From the NCBI GenBank assembly GCA_943331105.2, contig CALQKH020000005.1:124001-188000 (forward strand): a DNA stretch of 64,000 bases, read 5' to 3'. Under the pieces are notes generated by a model. That model worked only from the letters and a program-made list of their open reading frames with translations. It was not told the DNA's origin and searched no databases. Shown piece after piece: positions 45,171-52,873 of this stretch. A program made the translations under genes and the position numbers. Every line of letters begins with the position of its first letter. Position 1 is the stretch's first letter. The stretch is from Akkermansia muciniphila (GTDB lineage Bacteria; Pseudomonadota; Gammaproteobacteria; Burkholderiales; Burkholderiaceae_C).

Positions 45171-45209
45171 GGGGCGTTAGCTCAGTTGGTTAGAGCAGAG
45201 GACTCATAA
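45171..45209 (+). pseudogene. 5'-half of a CAU-anticodon tRNA
   Basis: GGGGCGTTAGCTCAG onward to GGACTCAT is identical, over 37 bases, to the 5' exon of the tRNA at 45368. It continues CATAA, so no intron is present, and then diverges into a palindrome. No matching 3' half follows. Confidence 0.85.
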
Positions 45210-45231
45210 ACAACTTAAGAACTTAAGTTGT
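45210..45231. repeat. Perfect palindrome at the broken tRNA anticodon
   Basis: ACAACTTAAG-AA-CTTAAGTTGT is a perfect 10-bp inverted repeat with a 2-base spacer, directly after the tRNA half. The next bases TATAAATCCTC faintly resemble the expected 3' exon. Confidence 0.6.
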
Positions 45232-45367
45232 CTATAAATCCTCAATGAAATCAACGGGTTACAGCGCCACAGTTGTCAAAATTTGCTTCCACACCGCTTC
45301 CACACTTTGCTGAAAATTTAAGCAGTAAAGTTGGAGTGGCCCAGAGCCTAGAATCAGTATGTTTTAA

Positions 45368-45647
45368 GGGGCGTTAGCTCAGTTGGTTAGAGCAGAGGAC
45401 TCATGAAAATTGTGCACCGAGGTAGGAAACTCTTCGTGTGAATGACGTCAAATTCGGTGAAAGCTAAGTGCAGTGATGCATACGCCAATGCCGAGCGAAG
45501 CTAGGTGCGAAAGCACCCTGAACGTGTAGAGACTAGACGGCGTCCACCTAAAGCGCAAGCCATGGTGAAGGCATAGTCCAGGGAGTAGTGAAAGCTACAC
45601 AAACCAGAATCCTTTGGTCGACAGTTCAAGTCTGTCACGCCCTACCA
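45368..45647 (+). tRNA. tRNA with CAU anticodon (Met or Ile2) interrupted by a group I intron
   Basis: Exon 1 is 45368-45404 (ends at anticodon CAT), exon 2 is 45608-45647 (begins AATCCTTTGG, ends TACCA with encoded CCA). Joined, they form a 77-base cloverleaf with acceptor GGGGCGT / ACGCCCT, D arm AGCTCAGTTGGTTAGAGC and T arm with GTTCAAGTC. Elongator Met versus lysidine-modified Ile2 cannot be settled by eye. The 203-base insertion sits just after the anticodon. Confidence 0.9.
45405..45607 (+). ncRNA. Group I intron, IC3-like, in tRNA anticodon loop
   Basis: The 203-base insert has the conserved group I core: P strand AATTCGGTGAAAGC (near 45451), Q AATGCCGAGC (45487-45496), R GTGTAGAGACTAGACGGC (45524-45541), S AAGGCATAGTCCAG (45568-45581), and ends in G (45607). 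The 5' site is after U of CAT, with a GTG near 45412 able to pair as the internal guide. It matches the small self-splicing Azoarcus tRNA intron closely in order and sequence, with no protein gene inside. Confidence 0.9.
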
Positions 45648-45656
45648 TTTATTACT

Positions 45657-45683
45657 CATGAACGGTTCTCTCAACCGTTCATG
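45657..45683. terminator. Perfect hairpin after the tRNA
   Basis: CATGAACGGTT pairs with AACCGTTCATG across CTCTC (11-bp perfect stem). There is no T tract, so it may be a processing or attachment-related hairpin rather than a full terminator. Confidence 0.45.
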
Positions 45684-46037
45684 TATCCCGTTGCGGGCCT
45701 GTAATGGCGCCATTCCTGAAAAAGTCTCTTGGCCGTAGATGGCCGAGAAATCGGGAGTGGCCCATTTTTTGGCCCGAAATCTCTCTCTTTCTCTGTTTTC
45801 TCTTGGTCGTGCCCAAGAGGAAAGCCTAGGATTTATGCGGGTTCGGGCAAGGAAGTTTGATGTGAATCTTGCCCCTCATGATTGACCAGACAACAAAAAA
45901 TCATCGTTGACTTGAGGTTACGGCAGAGCCCAACCAGGCTGATTGCGGAATACAACATGGACCGCCTCTAATGGCGGCTTAATCAAACACCGGTCGTATA
46001 GAGCGCGCTCACCTTCCAAGCCTAATCTTCAGCCACC
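45684..46037. other. Non-coding stretch between the tRNA and the accessory cluster
   Basis: No credible gene on either strand. Two small hairpins are present (CTTGGCC..GGCCGAG region near 45730; TCTTGG..CCCAAGA near 45805). Probably a junction region of the accessory DNA. Confidence 0.5.
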
Positions 46038-47153
46038 TCAGGTATTCATTTCTTTCGCCACCAGCTTGACGATCCGAGCGCGAGATACTGCCCTGCGGGC
46101 CACCAAGGCCCCCTCGCCGGTCTGTTGTAACCATTCAAAAAAACGTTGACTGGCGTGTCGCGTCTGCGAGTCGTCTCGACAGTTGGCCAAGAAGGCGAAT
46201 TGCATCTTCTGCACGTCATCCGCTACGAACACCCCAAAGGGGCCGCTCACCACCGTAGCGTCTGGAAATCCCAGAAGCGACGTAGCCTGGGTTTCCGTAG
46301 CGCCCCGGTGACAGGCGATCAAATGCAATGGCCCATGCGCAGAAGTCAGCAACTCGATACGCTGATGATCCTCTAGGAAGGGCCTTCCCACTAACTCGCG
46401 CGCGGCGGCCACGCCGAACGCGGCCGGAATTGCGTGAACCACAACTGCAACGTCTTTGCCATCCAGCTTGACCACCACGCCTCCGTCCACGGCCTTGGCA
46501 CCTTTGAGCCCACTCAAGGCCGTTTTGAGCGTCGACTCCATAGCCATTTTTCGTTGACGGAAGTCAAGTCGAGTCCAATCCAGGGCTGCGCCAACATCAA
46601 AGCGCGCCGATGCGCCAGCCAACACACCCCGTTGTGCCAGCGAGATCAGGGCATCCGAGAGCGCCTCGAATACACGCTTTTTCGCATCAGCCACGGTTTT
46701 AACCTCGCCGCCGCGAAAGGCCGTCTGCCGCGAAAGATAGTCCTGAAAGCGCCGGTTGCGTTTGCCTGCCGCTCCCTTGGCATCGGCCACGTTCGGCAGC
46801 GCTACTAGGCGCACCTTGGCCTGCGCCGAGCGAAGGCCCTCCATGTACTCCGCATGGCAAATGCCGATATCCTGCTTGCCTGCGGCCCAACCCGCATTGC
46901 CGTTTGACAGAACAATGAGTACATCGCAATCGCGAACAGCCTGTAGACAGGTATCCCAACTGTCTTGTGTGCCTCCGGCCGGCGGTGCGTCTTCGTTGAT
47001 CCAGACCTCGAACAGCCTTCTCCCCAGCACGTGGGCGGATTCGATTTCGGCCTTCAGTTCCTTTCGTAGGTCAGTCAGTTTGGACTTTGTACCTGTGGGG
47101 AACGCGTCGAGACATCGGCTGGACAGCATTACTTTTATGAGTGATTTAGCCAA
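46038..47153 (-). CDS. DUF4062 domain protein
   Basis: A 371-residue protein with an N-terminal DUF4062 domain (IKVMLSSRCLDAFPTG, FEVWINEDAPPAGG, CDVLIVLSNGNAGWA, GICHAEYMEGL). DUF4062 is TIR-like in fold and found in conflict-system proteins. The C-terminal ~200 residues are unrecognised. Start is TTG at 47153 with AGGAG six bases upstream, much better than the downstream ATG. It lies 85 bases after the ABC-3C ATPase gene, same strand, so it may be part of the same system. Confidence 0.78.
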   Translation of the reverse strand: MAKSLIKVMLSSRCLDAFPTGTKSKLTDLRKELKAEIESAHVLGRRLFEVWINEDAPPAGGTQDSWDTCLQAVRDCDVLIVLSNGNAGWAAGKQDIGICHAEYMEGLRSAQAKVRLVALPNVADAKGAAGKRNRRFQDYLSRQTAFRGGEVKTVADAKKRVFEALSDALISLAQRGVLAGASARFDVGAALDWTRLDFRQRKMAMESTLKTALSGLKGAKAVDGGVVVKLDGKDVAVVVHAIPAAFGVAAARELVGRPFLEDHQRIELLTSAHGPLHLIACHRGATETQATSLLGFPDATVVSGPFGVFVADDVQKMQFAFLANCRDDSQTRHASQRFFEWLQQTGEGALVARRAVSRARIVKLVAKEMNT

Positions 47154-47238
47154 GAAGCACTCCTGATTGATTGTCTACTGATTGACAGTACGCAATTCGG
47201 GATGCCGACGTCAGCTAGCAAGCATTCCGTGCTCGTCA

Positions 47239-49038
47239 CTACCAAACCTGCATGCGGAAGAGACGTCCCTTATCGCCCTCGTCGTGCAGGTTCAGCACAA
47301 TCTCGTCGGGAGAAAATACGGGTACCTCTGCCTCTACGCGAGGCGGCATATCGGAGTCGATCAAAGTAATGACTGACTGCACGCCAAGCTCAGCATACTC
47401 ACGGATGACCTTGAGAAGGTTAACCTTCTTGCGGTCGTCCAGCGACTCGAACACACCGTCGTGATAAACGAAGTGAGGAAACCTGTCCTTAATGTGAGCA
47501 CGCAGCACAGCTAGATCAAAGGCTATGCACAGCAATTTCCGGTAGGTATGCCCCAGATCGGCACTCGTGGCCTTGCCCTTTTCGTTGAGAATCTCGGCCC
47601 GAAACTCTAGGTGTCCGTTCGCGTTCGGAGAGACGCTTAGCAATGCCTTGTGAGCCAGGACTTCTTCGATGATCTCGCTGAAGTACACGCGGATCACTGA
47701 AAAAAGACTGGCTTTATCCGTATTCTGCGATTCAACGTCCGTCTCAATCTGCGACTGCAGATGCACACAGGCCTCCGTAAGTGCACGAATCTCCGTACGC
47801 AGCTCTTGCAGTCGGCGCAAGAAGCCCCGCTGCTTCTCAAGCGTTGCAATGTCAGCGCGCAGCGTCACGAGATCGTCAGTAACTTGCTTGTACTTGGCGA
47901 ACACGTCAGTGCTGCTAAGAAAGTCTAATACCCCCGACCGACGTTTGCCGAGGTCATCAAGTTCCTCTGCAACGGTCTTCAGCTCGGCCTCGATCTCAGT
48001 GCGCTCCTCTTGCAGATATCCGCGCCGCTCTTCCGTGATGGCGCGATTGAAGGCGATGAGCTGGCTGAAGTCCTTCTTGATCTGTCCAGAGAAAAGGATG
48101 CCTACTTCGTTGAACAGCTTCTCCGCTTGATCGGGCTTGAAAAGTATTTGGTCTTCCTCCAATGAGGTAACGATTTTGCGGCGGGCCTGGTGGAGCGAAT
48201 AGCGGCGTGCGTTCAGCTCAGCGACGCGCGCGTTGATCCCCTCCACGAGCTTCTCAGTTTGATCTTTGTCCTGCTCACGGAAGTCGAAAGCGTCAAGAAG
48301 TTGCTGCTTTTTGTCAGCATCCTTCTGCTTCAATAAAAGGATGCCCTCGATCTTGCTCAGGTCATCGACTGATCCGCCCAGTTCCGCCTGTACTGTTTGC
48401 GCGATGGCCTTTTTATCTTCCAGCTCTTCTAGTTTCGAGTAGTACTCCTCGATCAGCTTGTGATCAAAGCCAAGGATGTGTGCAACGTACGGCTTCCAGT
48501 CCTTGTGCTTCCCAATGGCGAACCGCCGCAGTTGAAACACGTCCTGGTAGTCGTCCTGCCCACGCAGCTGGTAGCCAAGTCCCTTTCGGAAGTCCCATGG
48601 TGAGACGGCGCGCCAATCAAGGAGTCCGTCGAGCATCTCCCGAGCGCGGTCAAACGACAAATTGAAGTGATCCCAGTCGGCTTCGGTTAGGTCCGTGAAG
48701 TCCTGATGTGCGGCCTCGTGCTTCTTAAAGCTGATCTTTGTGTGCTCGCTCACACCTCGCCGGACAGTAAGGTAGGTGGCGTCAGAGAGTCCAATCTCCA
48801 GGAAAAATATGAAATCCTTAAAGGCGTCTTCCTGCTTGAAAAGAAAGAAGTCCTTGTCGCGTCCGGCCAGGAAGCAGAAGTCGATCATGCGTCCCAGTGT
48901 GGTCTTTCCGAGGTTGTGCGTGTCCTTGTCCTTGTTCTTCGGCACCCTGATTTCTGCAAGGACCACGTTCAGGCCTGCACGGAACTCGATCGGCCCGAAA
49001 ATATCGGGCTTGTTGCTGTATAGCCTAGAGAGCTTCAT
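47239..49038 (-). CDS. ABC-three-component system ATPase, DUF2326 family
   Basis: A 599-residue SMC-like ATPase. The N-terminal Walker A is degenerate-looking but recognisable (DTHNLGKTTLGRMIDFCFLA); long coiled coils occupy ~230-450 (EELDDLGKRRSGVLDF, TLEKQRGFLRRLQELRTEI); the C-terminal ATPase lobe has YHDGVFESLDDRKKVNLL and LIDSDMP. DUF2326 proteins are the NTPase of predicted three-component (ABC-3C) conflict systems. ATG at 49038 starts MKLSRLYSNKPDIFGPIEF. It overlaps the middle component by 14 bases. Confidence 0.82.
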   Translation of the reverse strand: MKLSRLYSNKPDIFGPIEFRAGLNVVLAEIRVPKNKDKDTHNLGKTTLGRMIDFCFLAGRDKDFFLFKQEDAFKDFIFFLEIGLSDATYLTVRRGVSEHTKISFKKHEAAHQDFTDLTEADWDHFNLSFDRAREMLDGLLDWRAVSPWDFRKGLGYQLRGQDDYQDVFQLRRFAIGKHKDWKPYVAHILGFDHKLIEEYYSKLEELEDKKAIAQTVQAELGGSVDDLSKIEGILLLKQKDADKKQQLLDAFDFREQDKDQTEKLVEGINARVAELNARRYSLHQARRKIVTSLEEDQILFKPDQAEKLFNEVGILFSGQIKKDFSQLIAFNRAITEERRGYLQEERTEIEAELKTVAEELDDLGKRRSGVLDFLSSTDVFAKYKQVTDDLVTLRADIATLEKQRGFLRRLQELRTEIRALTEACVHLQSQIETDVESQNTDKASLFSVIRVYFSEIIEEVLAHKALLSVSPNANGHLEFRAEILNEKGKATSADLGHTYRKLLCIAFDLAVLRAHIKDRFPHFVYHDGVFESLDDRKKVNLLKVIREYAELGVQSVITLIDSDMPPRVEAEVPVFSPDEIVLNLHDEGDKGRLFRMQVW

Positions 49039-49273
49039 TGGGCCCCACGTATTCGATAGCATCGGTCTTGGGCTGGTACTCGACCAGTCCAAGCAGGAAC
49101 AGAAAGTTGAGTGCTGGCAGGAAGAGAACATCGCCGCCTGTGACCGCCTTTTTGGCGAATGTGCGTAGGTCGCCGTAGCGATCAAAGCGGCGCTTGCGCA
49201 AATGCTTCAGCAGAAGAAGGGCTACGTTCACGACTGTGCGATCAGGATGGGAGTGCTTAGTAGGTCGTAGCAT
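49025..49273 (-). CDS. ABC-three-component system middle component (MC6-like)
   Basis: An 82-residue small protein: MLRPTKHSHPDRTVVNVALLLLKHLRKRR, YGDLRTFAKK, FLPALNFLFLLGLVEYQ. This winged-helix-like size and position, between an Mrr-like protein and a DUF2326 ATPase and overlapping both, fits the middle component of ABC-3C systems. An ATG seven codons upstream (49294) is possible. Confidence 0.7.
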   Translation of the reverse strand: MLRPTKHSHPDRTVVNVALLLLKHLRKRRFDRYGDLRTFAKKAVTGGDVLFLPALNFLFLLGLVEYQPKTDAIEYVGPNEAL

Positions 49274-50216
49274 CTTCACCCTCCCCAATGTCACAATTCC
49301 AGTACATGTAGAAGAGCATAACGCGCGTCAAGGTTTTGTTAGCGCGCAGCAGAGGATCGCGCTCCAGGAGCAAGCGCACGAGATGATTCATTACCTCGTC
49401 AAATGTTTGATAGTCCTTCCGCTTTCCGATGATGCTGAGCTGAAACTCTTCAACTACGGATTCATATAGGCCTAAAAGATCTGCGTTTTCGGGTGCAGCA
49501 AGGAAGGCCTTCACCTGGGCCGTATCTTTTAGGTACCGCCGGCGAAGCTCCTTCGCGTACTCCGGAGTCATCTTGTTGAGGATGTTCTTCGTTTCGTATT
49601 TCGTCCGATCCGTCGGTGGTGTATCGACAACACTCGCCGTGCTTTTCAGATGGCGAGCAAGAGCCTGTACAACCTCGGAAAGCTGATCGGGGCTCACAAT
49701 TAGAGGCGAATCAATCGGGTCGAGATTGACTTGCGAGGCAACTGCAGGGAAGTCCTTGAGCCAGCCCTCAAGCTGCTCAATCCCACACAGCATGATCGAC
49801 GGCTCTGGTATGCCGCACTCTTTAGAGATGCGCGCGCGAATGCTGCTCTCTGCCCCGCCCGTCAGCTTGCGATTGGCGAACAACATGTAGTGATCCAGTT
49901 GCTTTGCCACCCTTAGCTTTTTGATGCGCTGGATTTCTTCGCCGATGATGTTATTTGTTGACTTCGGATTGAAAAAGTCGGTCTCGGAGAAGCTACGGTT
50001 GTAGCCGTAGGTGTGCTTGGCCTGAACGATTACGGTTCCGCTCCACGGAGCTTGGCTGCTTGGCAGCAGTTCTGCGGTACCTACGAATTTGGCATCGCGT
50101 CCGCCGTCGGGGCCCTTCGCAAAGCCTTGGGTTGCCATACCTAGAAGGCGTCGGCACAGCGCTACGACAAGCTCTTCAAACCGTGTGTCTCCCAAGTCTT
50201 CGTAAGCGTACTTCAT
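49257..50216 (-). CDS. ABC-three-component system effector with restriction-endonuclease-like domain
   Basis: A 319-residue protein. N-terminal PD-(D/E)xK nuclease-like domain: FEELVVALCRRLLG, KGPDGGRDAKFVG (Asp), TVIVQAKHTYG (QxK). The C-terminal part (from ~residue 210, TKYETKNILNKMTPEYAKEL, to the end) resembles the ABC-3C C-terminal domain that pairs with the ATPase. Likely first gene of the operon and the nucleolytic effector. ATG at 50216; the upstream region has no strong ribosome site. Confidence 0.8.
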   Translation of the reverse strand: MKYAYEDLGDTRFEELVVALCRRLLGMATQGFAKGPDGGRDAKFVGTAELLPSSQAPWSGTVIVQAKHTYGYNRSFSETDFFNPKSTNNIIGEEIQRIKKLRVAKQLDHYMLFANRKLTGGAESSIRARISKECGIPEPSIMLCGIEQLEGWLKDFPAVASQVNLDPIDSPLIVSPDQLSEVVQALARHLKSTASVVDTPPTDRTKYETKNILNKMTPEYAKELRRRYLKDTAQVKAFLAAPENADLLGLYESVVEEFQLSIIGKRKDYQTFDEVMNHLVRLLLERDPLLRANKTLTRVMLFYMYWNCDIGEGEDATTY

Positions 50217-50583: not shown

Positions 50584-51048
50584 TCAGTCGTCGGCGATGG
50601 CCTGAAACTTTGCATGCTGCTCACTCCATAGGGCCGGAATGGTGTGTTTGGTGAACCAATGTAAGTTCAGCCCCTTGGGCTGGGTGCCTTGAAGGATGCT
50701 GTCAATGATTTTGGGATCCAGCAGCGTCAAGCGCATGCATTCGTTGACCGTGGCCTGATCCAGGCCCTCCTGCCTGGCAATTTCAACGCCACTGCGAACG
50801 ATGCCCTCGTCGATCAGCCGCTGCCAGTAAAAGGCCCGCGTGAGCCCTTCAACCAGTTTGGTGTCCGGTAGTTGAGCGTGGTCTTTGGGTAGTTGAGCGT
50901 GGTCTTTGATCACCTGGGCGACGTTTTCCGGGGGCTCAACAACGCTGCGCCCACCGCGTTTGACGAACTTCAGTGGGATGAAGGTGCTGAACTCCACGTG
51001 ATTCGAGGTGGTGGCCACGCTGTGGCTCACCGACTGTGCGTTATTCAT
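50584..51048 (-). CDS. Recombinase-associated HTH-type protein
   Basis: A 154-residue protein read directly after the serine recombinase (ATGA overlap). The central part, VKRGGRSVVEPPENV to ARQEGLDQATVNECMRLTLLDPKIIDSILQG, matches the small helix-turn-helix-like proteins found downstream of phage-type serine recombinases. A 7-residue unit (KDHAQLP) is repeated in tandem. May assist recombination or regulate it. Confidence 0.65.
   Translation of the reverse strand: MNNAQSVSHSVATTSNHVEFSTFIPLKFVKRGGRSVVEPPENVAQVIKDHAQLPKDHAQLPDTKLVEGLTRAFYWQRLIDEGIVRSGVEIARQEGLDQATVNECMRLTLLDPKIIDSILQGTQPKGLNLHWFTKHTIPALWSEQHAKFQAIADD
50867..50908. repeat. Two exact 21-bp tandem repeats in the HTH gene
   Basis: GGTAGTTGAGCGTGGTCTTTG-type units at 50867-50887 and 50888-50908 are identical and in frame, adding seven residues. 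Probably a recent duplication by slippage. Confidence 0.85.
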
Positions 51049-52406
51049 GCAATCTCCAATTCACGCAGGTCATATTCCAGTTGTTCATATCCGGCCAGGT
51101 TCTTGGGCGGAAGGCCGATCAGTGCACCCCAGGCTTCAAATCGCCAGTCCACATGCAAGCCTTCCGGGGCGACGGTGATGCGCTTGATCAGCGTGCGCAC
51201 GATGTCTTGTTTGGCTTGCGTGGCCAACTGGTCCCATATGCCCGCCGTGTTTTTGAAGAACAAGACCATGGCTTCAGGTTCGGTCAGCTTGGGGTTGAGG
51301 CTGTACACCTGCTCCCAGCATTTGTGAACCATCTGACCGGATCGCAACACTTCGAGCACCTTCTCCATCACGGATTTCTCTATACCCGCCGCAGGCAGAT
51401 TGGCAAATTCCACGGTGCCAGCCCCCATTTTTTGGTTCTTGTTGACCACGTAGTAGCGGTACAGCTTGCCGCTGGTCTTGCGGGTGGCCATCGGCAGGTA
51501 GAGGTCTCCATCGGCCGTGAACATCATCCCGCGCAGCAAGAAGCCGTGCCTGCACTTCTGACCGAAGGTGTCGCGAGCCCGATCTCGGCTGTTCTGGGCC
51601 ATGATCTCTTGCACACGGTCCCATTGCGACTGGTCAATCAGGGCCTCGTGTTGGCCTGGATAAAAGTCGCCCTTGTGCCCAATATCGCCGATGTACAGAC
51701 GGTTGTGCAGGATGGTGTAAAGGGCCTGCTTGCTCAGTGGCTTGCCGTTTTTGCTCGTGACGCCTTGCTCTACGAGCTGCTTGACCATGAGAGTGGTCGA
51801 CCGTGTGGCGACAAACGAGTCAAAGATTTGCCGCACAACCTCGGCCTCCTCTGGCACCACCACCAACTTTCGGTTGTCCACGCAGTAGCCCATCGGCACT
51901 GGTCCGCCCATCCACATGCCTTTGCGCTTGGAGGCGGCGAATTTGTCGCGGATGCGCTCGCCGGTTACCTCGCGCTCAAATTGCGCAAAAGACAGCAAAA
52001 CGTTGAGCATCAAGCGTCCCATGGACGTGGCCGAATTGATCTGCTGTGTGACTGAACTGAAGCTGGCCTTGTACCGATCAAAGAGCTGAATCATCTTGGC
52101 AAAGTCAGCCAGTGACCGCGAAAGTCGGTCGATCTTGTAGACCACCACAATGTCGATCTTGCCGTCCTGGATGTCTTGCAACAGGCGCTTGAGGCCCGGG
52201 CGGTCCATATTGCCGCCGGTGAACCCTGGGTCTTCGTAGTTGTCCTCGACTTGTTCCCAGCCCTCGGCGCGCTGACTGGCGATGAATGCTGCGCCAGCTT
52301 CACGCTGCGCATCAATGGAGTTGAAGGCTTGATCTAGCCGTTCGTCCGATGAGACGCGGCAATACACCGCGCAGCGCTTGGGAGTGACTTGTTGCGTCTC
52401 GCTCAT
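51045..52406 (-). CDS. Serine recombinase (large, phage-type)
   Basis: A 453-residue recombinase. Catalytic domain: CAVYCRVSSDERLDQAFNS (Ser nucleophile in VSS), then IDIVVVYKIDRLSRSLADFAK and LLSFAQFEREVTGERIRDK; a recombinase middle domain (GYCVDNRKLVVVPEEAEVVRQIF) follows. The usual Cys4 zinc ribbon is degenerate (KCRHGFLLRGMMFT). It would integrate or excise mobile DNA. ATG at 52406 overlaps the DUF2924 stop (ATGA). Confidence 0.9.
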   Translation of the reverse strand: MSETQQVTPKRCAVYCRVSSDERLDQAFNSIDAQREAGAAFIASQRAEGWEQVEDNYEDPGFTGGNMDRPGLKRLLQDIQDGKIDIVVVYKIDRLSRSLADFAKMIQLFDRYKASFSSVTQQINSATSMGRLMLNVLLSFAQFEREVTGERIRDKFAASKRKGMWMGGPVPMGYCVDNRKLVVVPEEAEVVRQIFDSFVATRSTTLMVKQLVEQGVTSKNGKPLSKQALYTILHNRLYIGDIGHKGDFYPGQHEALIDQSQWDRVQEIMAQNSRDRARDTFGQKCRHGFLLRGMMFTADGDLYLPMATRKTSGKLYRYYVVNKNQKMGAGTVEFANLPAAGIEKSVMEKVLEVLRSGQMVHKCWEQVYSLNPKLTEPEAMVLFFKNTAGIWDQLATQAKQDIVRTLIKRITVAPEGLHVDWRFEAWGALIGLPPKNLAGYEQLEYDLRELEIA

Positions 52407-52873
52407 GCCTTCTTGCCTTTCAAGCCAAAGAAGGCCGGTCCGGACCACTGTGTGCCGGTGATTAACTTGGCAATGGCCGACAGGCTCTTGTACCGCTGGC
52501 CGTCGAATTCATAGCCACCAGTGGGTAGCACCGTGACCTTGTATTTGTGGCCATCAAATTCACGAAAGAGCGTGGTGCCCGGGAGTAGTGTCCGGGTGGA
52601 TGGGGCAGCGGTCTTGATCTTCGAGAACCGGGCTCCGTAGTCGGCCAGCATGTCGCGTGTGCCGGTGGGCAGTGCGCCATAGGCCTGCTCTTGCAGCTTG
52701 TAGATCAAGCGTGACTCGATGTGCGTGCGATTGGGCCGCGAAGGCCGGTGCACAAAGAATTGATCCCACAGGGCCCAGAGCTCGGGCATTTTCATATTCG
52801 GGAGCGCGTGGAGTTGTTCGGATATTTGGCCGGTGCGAAAGATGTCGCGCATCGGCGGGGCGGTGTTTTTCAA
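52403..52873 (-). CDS. DUF2924 family protein
   Basis: A 156-residue protein of the family that precedes serine recombinases in mobile elements: MPELWALWDQFFVHRPSRPNR, LIYKLQEQAYGAL, GTTLFREFDGHKYKVTVL, EFDGQRYKSLSAIAKLITG. Function unknown, possibly a DNA-binding partner of the recombinase. Overlaps neighbours by 4 bases on both sides. Confidence 0.85.
   Translation of the reverse strand: MKNTAPPMRDIFRTGQISEQLHALPNMKMPELWALWDQFFVHRPSRPNRTHIESRLIYKLQEQAYGALPTGTRDMLADYGARFSKIKTAAPSTRTLLPGTTLFREFDGHKYKVTVLPTGGYEFDGQRYKSLSAIAKLITGTQWSGPAFFGLKGKKA

Follow-up and report, generated by a model that had tools for sequence, protein, structure and literature searches.

The window analysed here, a single stretch of 64,000 nucleotides, carries a tRNA-Ile(CAU) gene that is interrupted by a group I intron (45368-45647, + strand). 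We propose, with a probability of about 0.74, that the locus is the remnant of an integrative element that replaced its target tRNA gene. We favour replacement because an orphan 5' half of the same tRNA, termed N5, sits upstream at the place where intronless relatives keep an intact gene; because six elements in other genomes, each with both host halves, carry matched tRNA halves of their own that are mismatched in most cases when crossed with those of the host; and because the orphan half goes with the intron and not with the intronless genes, with an integrase gene downstream of the tRNA in 16 loci. N5, which lies 197 bp upstream of the gene and points to the vehicle, had been overlooked in a preliminary description made from the letters of the window. 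The features are collected in Table 1.

Table 1. Features of the tRNA-Ile(CAU) locus in the window, and extents of the six elements assembled with both host halves in other genomes.
Feature	Position or extent	Strand	Basis
Orphan 5' half of tRNA-Ile(CAU) (N5), 37 nt, equal to the intact 5' exon	45171-45207	+	self-match
160-bp stretch interpreted as the attL arm of a tyrosine-integrase element; ends within the promoter region of the intact gene	45208-45367	+	
Perfect inverted repeat ACAACTTAAG-AA-CTTAAGTTGT, right at the junction	45210-45231	.	sequence; self-match on opposite strand
AATCAACGGGTTAC, like the reverse complement of GTAACCTATTGATT at right ends in G001 and G026	45249-45262	+	
Tandem arm-type repeat GCTTCCACAC-C-GCTTCCACAC, 11 bp spacing	45285-45305	+	
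Putative -10-like TAGAAT ahead of the intact tRNA	45349-45354	+	sequence
5' exon of tRNA-Ile(CAU), last triplet the anticodon CAT	45368-45404	+	sequence
Group I intron, 203 nt, at tRNA positions 36/37, after anticodon base 36	45405-45607	+	RF00028 and pairing
Internal guide sequence GTG, pairing with anticodon CAT (P1)	45412-45414	+	GTGC in 38/38 introns
3' exon of tRNA-Ile(CAU), CCA encoded; start of accessory DNA	45608-45647	+	sequence comparison
Comamonas sp. lk element (L192/L193)	about 24 kb		
G006 element	about 18 kb, to the first of two 3' halves		
Gulbenkiania element (L195)	about 8.6 kb		
G001 element	about 15 kb, to the first of several 3' halves		
G017 element; truncated 5' half, decayed piece of intron in the 3' half, ambiguous right junction	about 6 kb		
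G455 element	ends on two contigs		

Joined, the exons form a 77-nt tRNA, which was called by ARAGORN once spliced and typed as tRNA-Met(cat); the unspliced gene drew no ARAGORN report in the scan of the window. The intron starts with GAAAATTGTG and ends with AAACCAG, and the 3' exon reads AATCC...ACGCCCTACCA. At about the place of the candidate -10-like element, TACAAT is found in six other units (L008, L011, L021, L032, L051 and L106). The organism belongs to the Burkholderiales and, judging by its named relatives, probably to Limnohabitans. Its genome has 37 tRNA genes above the Rfam cut-off, two of them in the window. The 35 outside it were extracted and all were typed with ARAGORN, and a CAT anticodon was found in two other tRNAs of the genome, L272 and L295. 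We take L272 to be an elongator Met-like and L295 an initiator-like tRNA. As these two CAU tRNAs look like the elongator and the initiator, the intron-bearing gene was read as Ile and not Met, and its product presumably resembles E. coli tRNA-Ile2. The C34 of tRNA-Ile(CAU) is converted to lysidine.

Over 77 nt the joined tRNA is identical to the hrcA-linked intronless tRNA of 4 of 14 relatives (L033, L058, L059 and L260); the hrcA-linked tRNA of the remaining ten differs by 2-6 nt. Only a single copy of the tRNA-Ile(CAU) 3' half was found in the draft genome (29 contigs), and the intron-bearing gene is therefore the only source of tRNA-Ile(CAU) found there. The one gene found for the tRNA that reads AUA is thus a gene with an intron of the self-splicing type. 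Across the loci scanned, ARAGORN in bacterial mode reported no interrupted tRNA-Ile genes, and annotations based on this program may seem to be without tRNA-Ile(CAU).

The preliminary description had named a group I intron placed after the anticodon of a CAU-anticodon tRNA whose exons join to a full tRNA. All of this was confirmed, with coordinates and the 203-base length exact. It had also proposed a covariance search, and RF00028 matched the intron over the full model at 45.5 bits (E 2.2e-10, 651 bases searched), a score under the gathering score of 50; for this reason the Rfam scan of the whole window at gathering listed two tRNAs and no RF00028. We collected 45 distinct related introns, of which 38 were aligned after removal of seven near-duplicates. 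Canonical pairs filled 1496 of 1544 cells over ten helices, and two-sided changes were present in 22 of 42 pairs, including 2/6 in P3, 1/5 in P7 and 1/4 in P8. When the 3' partners were slid by 1-3 columns as a control, 419-606 cells were canonical and 4-9 pairs had two-sided changes. The helices were picked on one member sequence, that of the window, so some excess of paired cells is expected and the two-sided changes are the stronger evidence. The intron has a P3-P9 core with crossing P3 and P7 helices, backed by these paired changes. The guide GTG and the terminal G are kept in 38/38 introns, and the pairing of CAT with GTG places a U before the 5' splice site, facing a guide G.

With about 200 nt and a site within the tRNA-Ile(CAU) anticodon loop, the intron is of the Azoarcus kind, an already known family, and its length and 36/37 position bear out the earlier assignment to the small group I introns of the Azoarcus tRNA-Ile kind. 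Like that of Azoarcus sp. BH72, this intron lies in a tRNA-Ile precursor and has the same kind of guide and tag triplets. We take the BH72 intron to be of about the same size, at the same position and of subgroup IC3, the label that presumably applies to the intron of the window as well. Introns at positions 33/34 were found at other loci; two of these were compared with RF00028 and scored 31.0 and 28.7 bits (E 2.8e-6 and 2.2e-5), under gathering. Similar group I cores were also observed in an apparent tRNA-Arg(CCU) (L036 8200-8600, G004) and an apparent tRNA-Leu (L022 1380-1760, G057), the tRNA names being assigned by eye.

N5 starts 34 nt past the hrcA stop codon, at roughly the distance from hrcA of the intact intronless tRNA in relatives such as L058 and L059, and continues into CATAA with no 3' half. 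Stretches like the one that follows it were collected from the loci (30 in all, 18 of them non-redundant, the window's included). A tandem repeat spaced by 11 nt lies at offset 80-84 after the GGACT of the tRNA half in 15/18 stretches, compared with 1.8% of shuffles; it is missing in L081, L099 (Gulbenkiania) and L122. Tyrosine integrases leave tandem arm sites at a fixed distance from the anticodon-loop junction, and the left end in the window has both the arm-type repeats and the anticodon-loop junction of a tRNA-targeting tyrosine integrase. The left junction is CATAA in 22/22 orphan halves, as in the intronless target. Spacings between half and gene range from 181 to 226 bp and are constant at 197 bp in the genome of the window (G000), G015 and G027.

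No match to the integrase family better than E 0.5 was found downstream in the window, which is for this reason at most the remnant of an element. A right end or second boundary was likewise not found in the window, and the genome has one 3' half only. As integrase remnant, right end and second 3' half are absent, replacement is argued for the window from N5, from its left end and from what other genomes show. N5 and the intact 5' exon are identical, so a test of acceptor-stem pairing is uninformative in the window.

Such a test was informative elsewhere. In six cases a complete element tRNA could be assembled together with both halves of the host gene. The acceptor stems of the host halves pair at 7/7 positions in all six, as do those of the element's own halves. 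Crossed stems pair at 4-5/7 in four cases, at 6/7 in Gulbenkiania and at 7/7 in G001, where the acceptor types are alike. The right ends read CTCAT/AATCC in five of the six, followed by the displaced 3' half. Elements of this kind in related genomes cut the host tRNA-Ile gene within the 7-nt anticodon loop (CTCATAA) and supply a complete tRNA in its stead, in many cases interrupted by a group I intron at 36/37 or 33/34. The unit type of the window occurs in part beside a switch of acceptor type in G017 (32 nt identical) and G026 (78%). The same target is used in G472, G467 (two contigs) and G032 by layouts that restore an intron-free 3' half.

A host 3' half with a decayed intron piece lies 6 kb downstream of the intron-bearing replacement tRNA in G017 (L042 7534-13917), and two generations of introns are present at this one place. 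Two stacked orphan tRNA-Ile 5' halves, about 185-233 bp apart, precede an intact intron-bearing gene in L198 (Polynucleobacter sinensis, 2262-2990, + strand) and L255 (17634-17224, - strand) and record repeated integrations at one site.

At 16 distinct loci, a gene for an integrase of one family, A1, follows tRNA-Ile(CAU) at a distance of no more than 5 kb. The proteins are of about 470 aa; two of the three tested have Phage_int_SAM domains and the third had no Pfam match. The tRNA has a 36/37 intron in 11 of the loci and a 33/34 intron in three, and is intronless in two (G241, with a different anticodon stem, and G126, ordinary); upstream, ten have an orphan half, two reach the contig start and four have none. 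Because 11 of the 16 were found through the intron or the tRNA, the intron share of 14/16 is biased. The integrase search alone (E 1e-120 or better) found G006, G034, G088, G099, G126, G241 and G319, and among these seven loci the intron is present in five and the orphan half in six. Integrases at this threshold were present in 6 of 399 genomes of the order, in six genera. Left out of the 16 were L203 (an integrase fragment 2 kb after a lone 3' half), L045 (a 61-aa remnant), and more distant integrases beside intronless tRNA-Ile in G472 and G467.

Among the elements with both host halves, the family integrase was seen in the sequence of Comamonas and G006 only. It was not found in the G001, G017 and Gulbenkiania elements, and the G455 contig ends soon after the tRNA. 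DNA methylases and SNF2 or restriction-type helicases are among the scanned proteins of the Comamonas, G006 and Gulbenkiania elements. The L191 integrase had no match among phages at E 1e-20 and one 30% partial match among plasmids, and the family alignment matched 1 of 17 candidate stretches from viral contigs (25%, partial). As the phage and viral searches were nearly empty, there was no sign of the elements being phages. In the G241 element, the intronless CAU tRNA with a different anticodon stem lies directly before the integrase (L252, about 1767-1841, - strand). In the genus, more distant relatives of the integrase directly follow tRNA-Phe, Asn, Lys, Leu and CAU tRNA genes (L218-L243), and the window's own genome has one after tRNA-Phe (G000:C10:143221-144268).

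We compared intron-bearing and intronless genes for an orphan half within 450 bp upstream. One was present at 17/39 genes with the 36/37 intron, 4/9 with the 33/34 intron and 1/23 intronless genes; one more 36/37 gene lacked upstream sequence, and six loci drawn by the unit pattern (L210-L215) were left out. Pooled, the orphan half was found at 21/48 intron-bearing genes versus 0/22 intronless genes when G425, which had been fetched because of its unit, was set aside (p 6e-5), and versus 1/23 when it was kept (p 7e-4). The association was also present in a restricted set of loci (16/36 versus 0/11, p 0.009) and within the same genus only (L001-L065; 6/14 versus 0/17, p 0.004); related genomes were treated as independent, and all of these p values are guides only. 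The pattern misses decayed halves, as in G017 (intron-bearing, truncated) and G026 (intronless, about 83% identity). In G026 the missing intron and its 3' exon lie 1.8 kb downstream, severed by an insertion. One of the searches behind these loci returned at least 118 stretches, 80 of them named among the matches listed, and their distribution gives lower bounds.

Under replacement, a tyrosine-integrase element would have recombined at CTCATAA, the 7-nt anticodon loop of the host tRNA-Ile(CAU) gene by hrcA, splitting that gene into a 5' half, which would remain as N5, and a 3' half. The element's own complete tRNA-Ile(CAU) gene with its group I intron would have lain just inside the left end, behind the arm sites and promoter, and would have taken over the function. 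The integrase, the cargo and the host 3' half would later have been lost, plausibly via recombination between the two 3' halves, so that N5, the left end and the intron-bearing tRNA were left behind. Splicing is predicted to follow the usual two-step route: with CAU paired to the guide GTG, the attack of an exogenous G falls after U36, and the 3' splice site is set by the terminal G. A host in this state would rely on a ribozyme for its only known tRNA-Ile(CAU).

Several observations speak against replacement. G011, G022, G024 and G473 have the 36/37 intron at hrcA but no orphan half, as for a resident intron. Intronless tRNAs come after the unit of G425 and after the decayed orphan half of G026, and the integrase of G126 lies beside an ordinary intronless tRNA. 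The Gulbenkiania left end is without the tandem repeat, and the family integrase was present in 2/6 elements with both host halves.

The intron may also be a shield, although we regard this as rather unlikely. It would split the anticodon-loop target in the element's own tRNA against the element's own integrase, and splicing would keep the tRNA working. Introns at two positions, both within the 7-nt loop, in 14 of the 16 integrase-linked tRNAs are consistent with such a role, as is the different anticodon stem of the intronless replacement tRNA in G241. Similarly, the Comamonas and G319 elements have integrases that are 88% identical (that of G319 with one in-frame stop) and the same type of tRNA, yet their introns lie at different positions. 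However, the 14/16 share suffers from the bias noted above, the less biased count being the 5/7 of the integrase-found loci; G126 pairs the integrase with an uninterrupted tRNA-Ile; insertions sever 4/45 distinct introns from the 5' exon (G026, G060, L092 and L202); and a passenger intron accounts for most of the pattern. The four insertions lie directly before the intron and rule out that the intron blocks integration in general. A broader proposal is that this class of elements swaps its target tRNA outright and hides the replacement from its own integrase, either with introns at two positions or with a recoded anticodon stem; we consider it speculative and doubtful. The intron-biased finding of loci and the presence of the integrase in two of six elements lowered our confidence in both of these proposals and in replacement itself.

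It is improbable that the intron was resident and that an element, with an attP made of promoter and tRNA 5' half, hit CTCAT, rebuilt the gene and later shrank to 197 bp. Such a course would agree with the 3' exon of the window, which equals the native 3' exon of four relatives, with the use of intron-bearing tRNAs as targets at least four times (the severed loci named above), and with the four hrcA-linked introns that have no orphan half. It conflicts with the G017 and G026 units, which precede a 5' half of another acceptor type, and with the six elements that each carry a complete matched tRNA. That the tRNA gene was duplicated in tandem and the first copy then lost its 3' half is highly improbable: this would fit the exact 37-nt repeat and the constant 197-bp spacing in three genomes, but the CATAA junction of every orphan half, the arm-type repeats at a fixed offset and the differing acceptor types of the two copies in several genomes argue against it, and among the loci examined there was no intermediate in which two complete genes are separated by the same spacer.

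Horizontal acquisition, suggested in the preliminary description, is in line with several signs of spread. The intron of the window is 99.0% identical to that of G015, whereas hrcA is 89.3% and nadK 85.2% identical. On an hrcA tree of 25 rows, with 4/22 inner branches starred and eight loci without an assigned state left out (L034, L055, L056, L194, L258, L262, L264 and L267), intron presence changes at least six times, and the window's supported sister, G472, has no intron. Limnohabitans Jir61 shares with G099 (family code f43; window f1) a stretch of 2946 bp that comprises tRNA, 33/34 intron and integrase, at 98.8% identity. Bacterial tRNA introns had been described as uncommon, but within the genus this intron is not rare: the 36/37 kind was found in 14 of 36 genomes (window included), in three of them as contig-end pieces only and in one severed from its 5' exon.

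The setting had been described as an accessory region, which holds for the DNA from the 3' exon onward but not for the left side, where hrcA and nadK are conserved. Compared with G028, identity is 98-100% from the 3' exon over about 1 kb and 84.5% in the upstream flank. This accessory DNA is a separate story from the intron element. Serine-recombinase genes occupy the same place in relatives. In the window, a large serine recombinase (51045-52448, - strand) has CcrB as its best NCBIfam match, at 158.8 bits against a cut-off of 900. Downstream of this tRNA, G020 and G034 have 98% identical copies of it, along with partial repeats of the 391 bp after the tRNA (45648-46038), as if serine-recombinase elements stack at the tRNA 3' end. 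The interval 46038-50216 (- strand) encodes DUF4062, DUF2326 and an ABC-three-component CTD12 protein with a weak Mrr match, genes that are probably for defence.

The Azoarcus pre-tRNA-Ile group I intron has been crystallised (PMC3984707). Like the Islander islands described in PMC4383910, the elements reported here combine a tyrosine integrase, a crossover in the anticodon loop and a displaced tRNA fragment. In Islander islands a fragment in attP restores the split tRNA gene, whereas these elements bring a whole tRNA gene, which is not interchangeable with that of the host in four of the six elements, while a fifth fails by a single pair. Restoration of the split gene by attP, the usual account, does not cover the six elements, since each brings a complete gene. 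In archaea, tRNA introns have been proposed to travel in an intron-containing attP, which might also prevent further invasion (PMC3293823, PMC8371274). As proposed for the Caldiarchaeum element (Sugahara 2012, PMC3293823; PMC8371274), a mobile element would bring an intron into a tRNA at the integration site; in contrast to that element, where an archaeal intron lies within attP, the group I introns here are bacterial and interrupt a complete tRNA gene that the element carries separately. The tycheposons of Methylophilaceae (PMC10872708) are likewise tRNA-starting islands with a tyrosine recombinase in freshwater Betaproteobacteria, but the word "intron" is absent from the main text of that paper. 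In a search covering part of the literature, we found no description of group I introns in whole tRNA genes carried by integrative elements, and no bacterial equivalent of the archaeal intron-vector proposal in the literature searched.

How bacterial tRNA group I introns spread without a homing endonuclease is an old question, and these loci give a concrete vehicle. Their scars can be read, since the ends of the element, the split halves of the host gene and the mismatched acceptor stems tell the direction of each event. The loci also offer a bacterial setting in which to test the archaeal idea linking tRNA introns and integration sites. Should the element class indeed hide its replacement tRNA from the integrase it encodes, the group I intron would have a function in the life cycle of the element, and hosts of remnants would depend on the ribozyme. 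These loci also show an essential tRNA exchanged for a foreign one by integration, through which the host would come to depend on a ribozyme.
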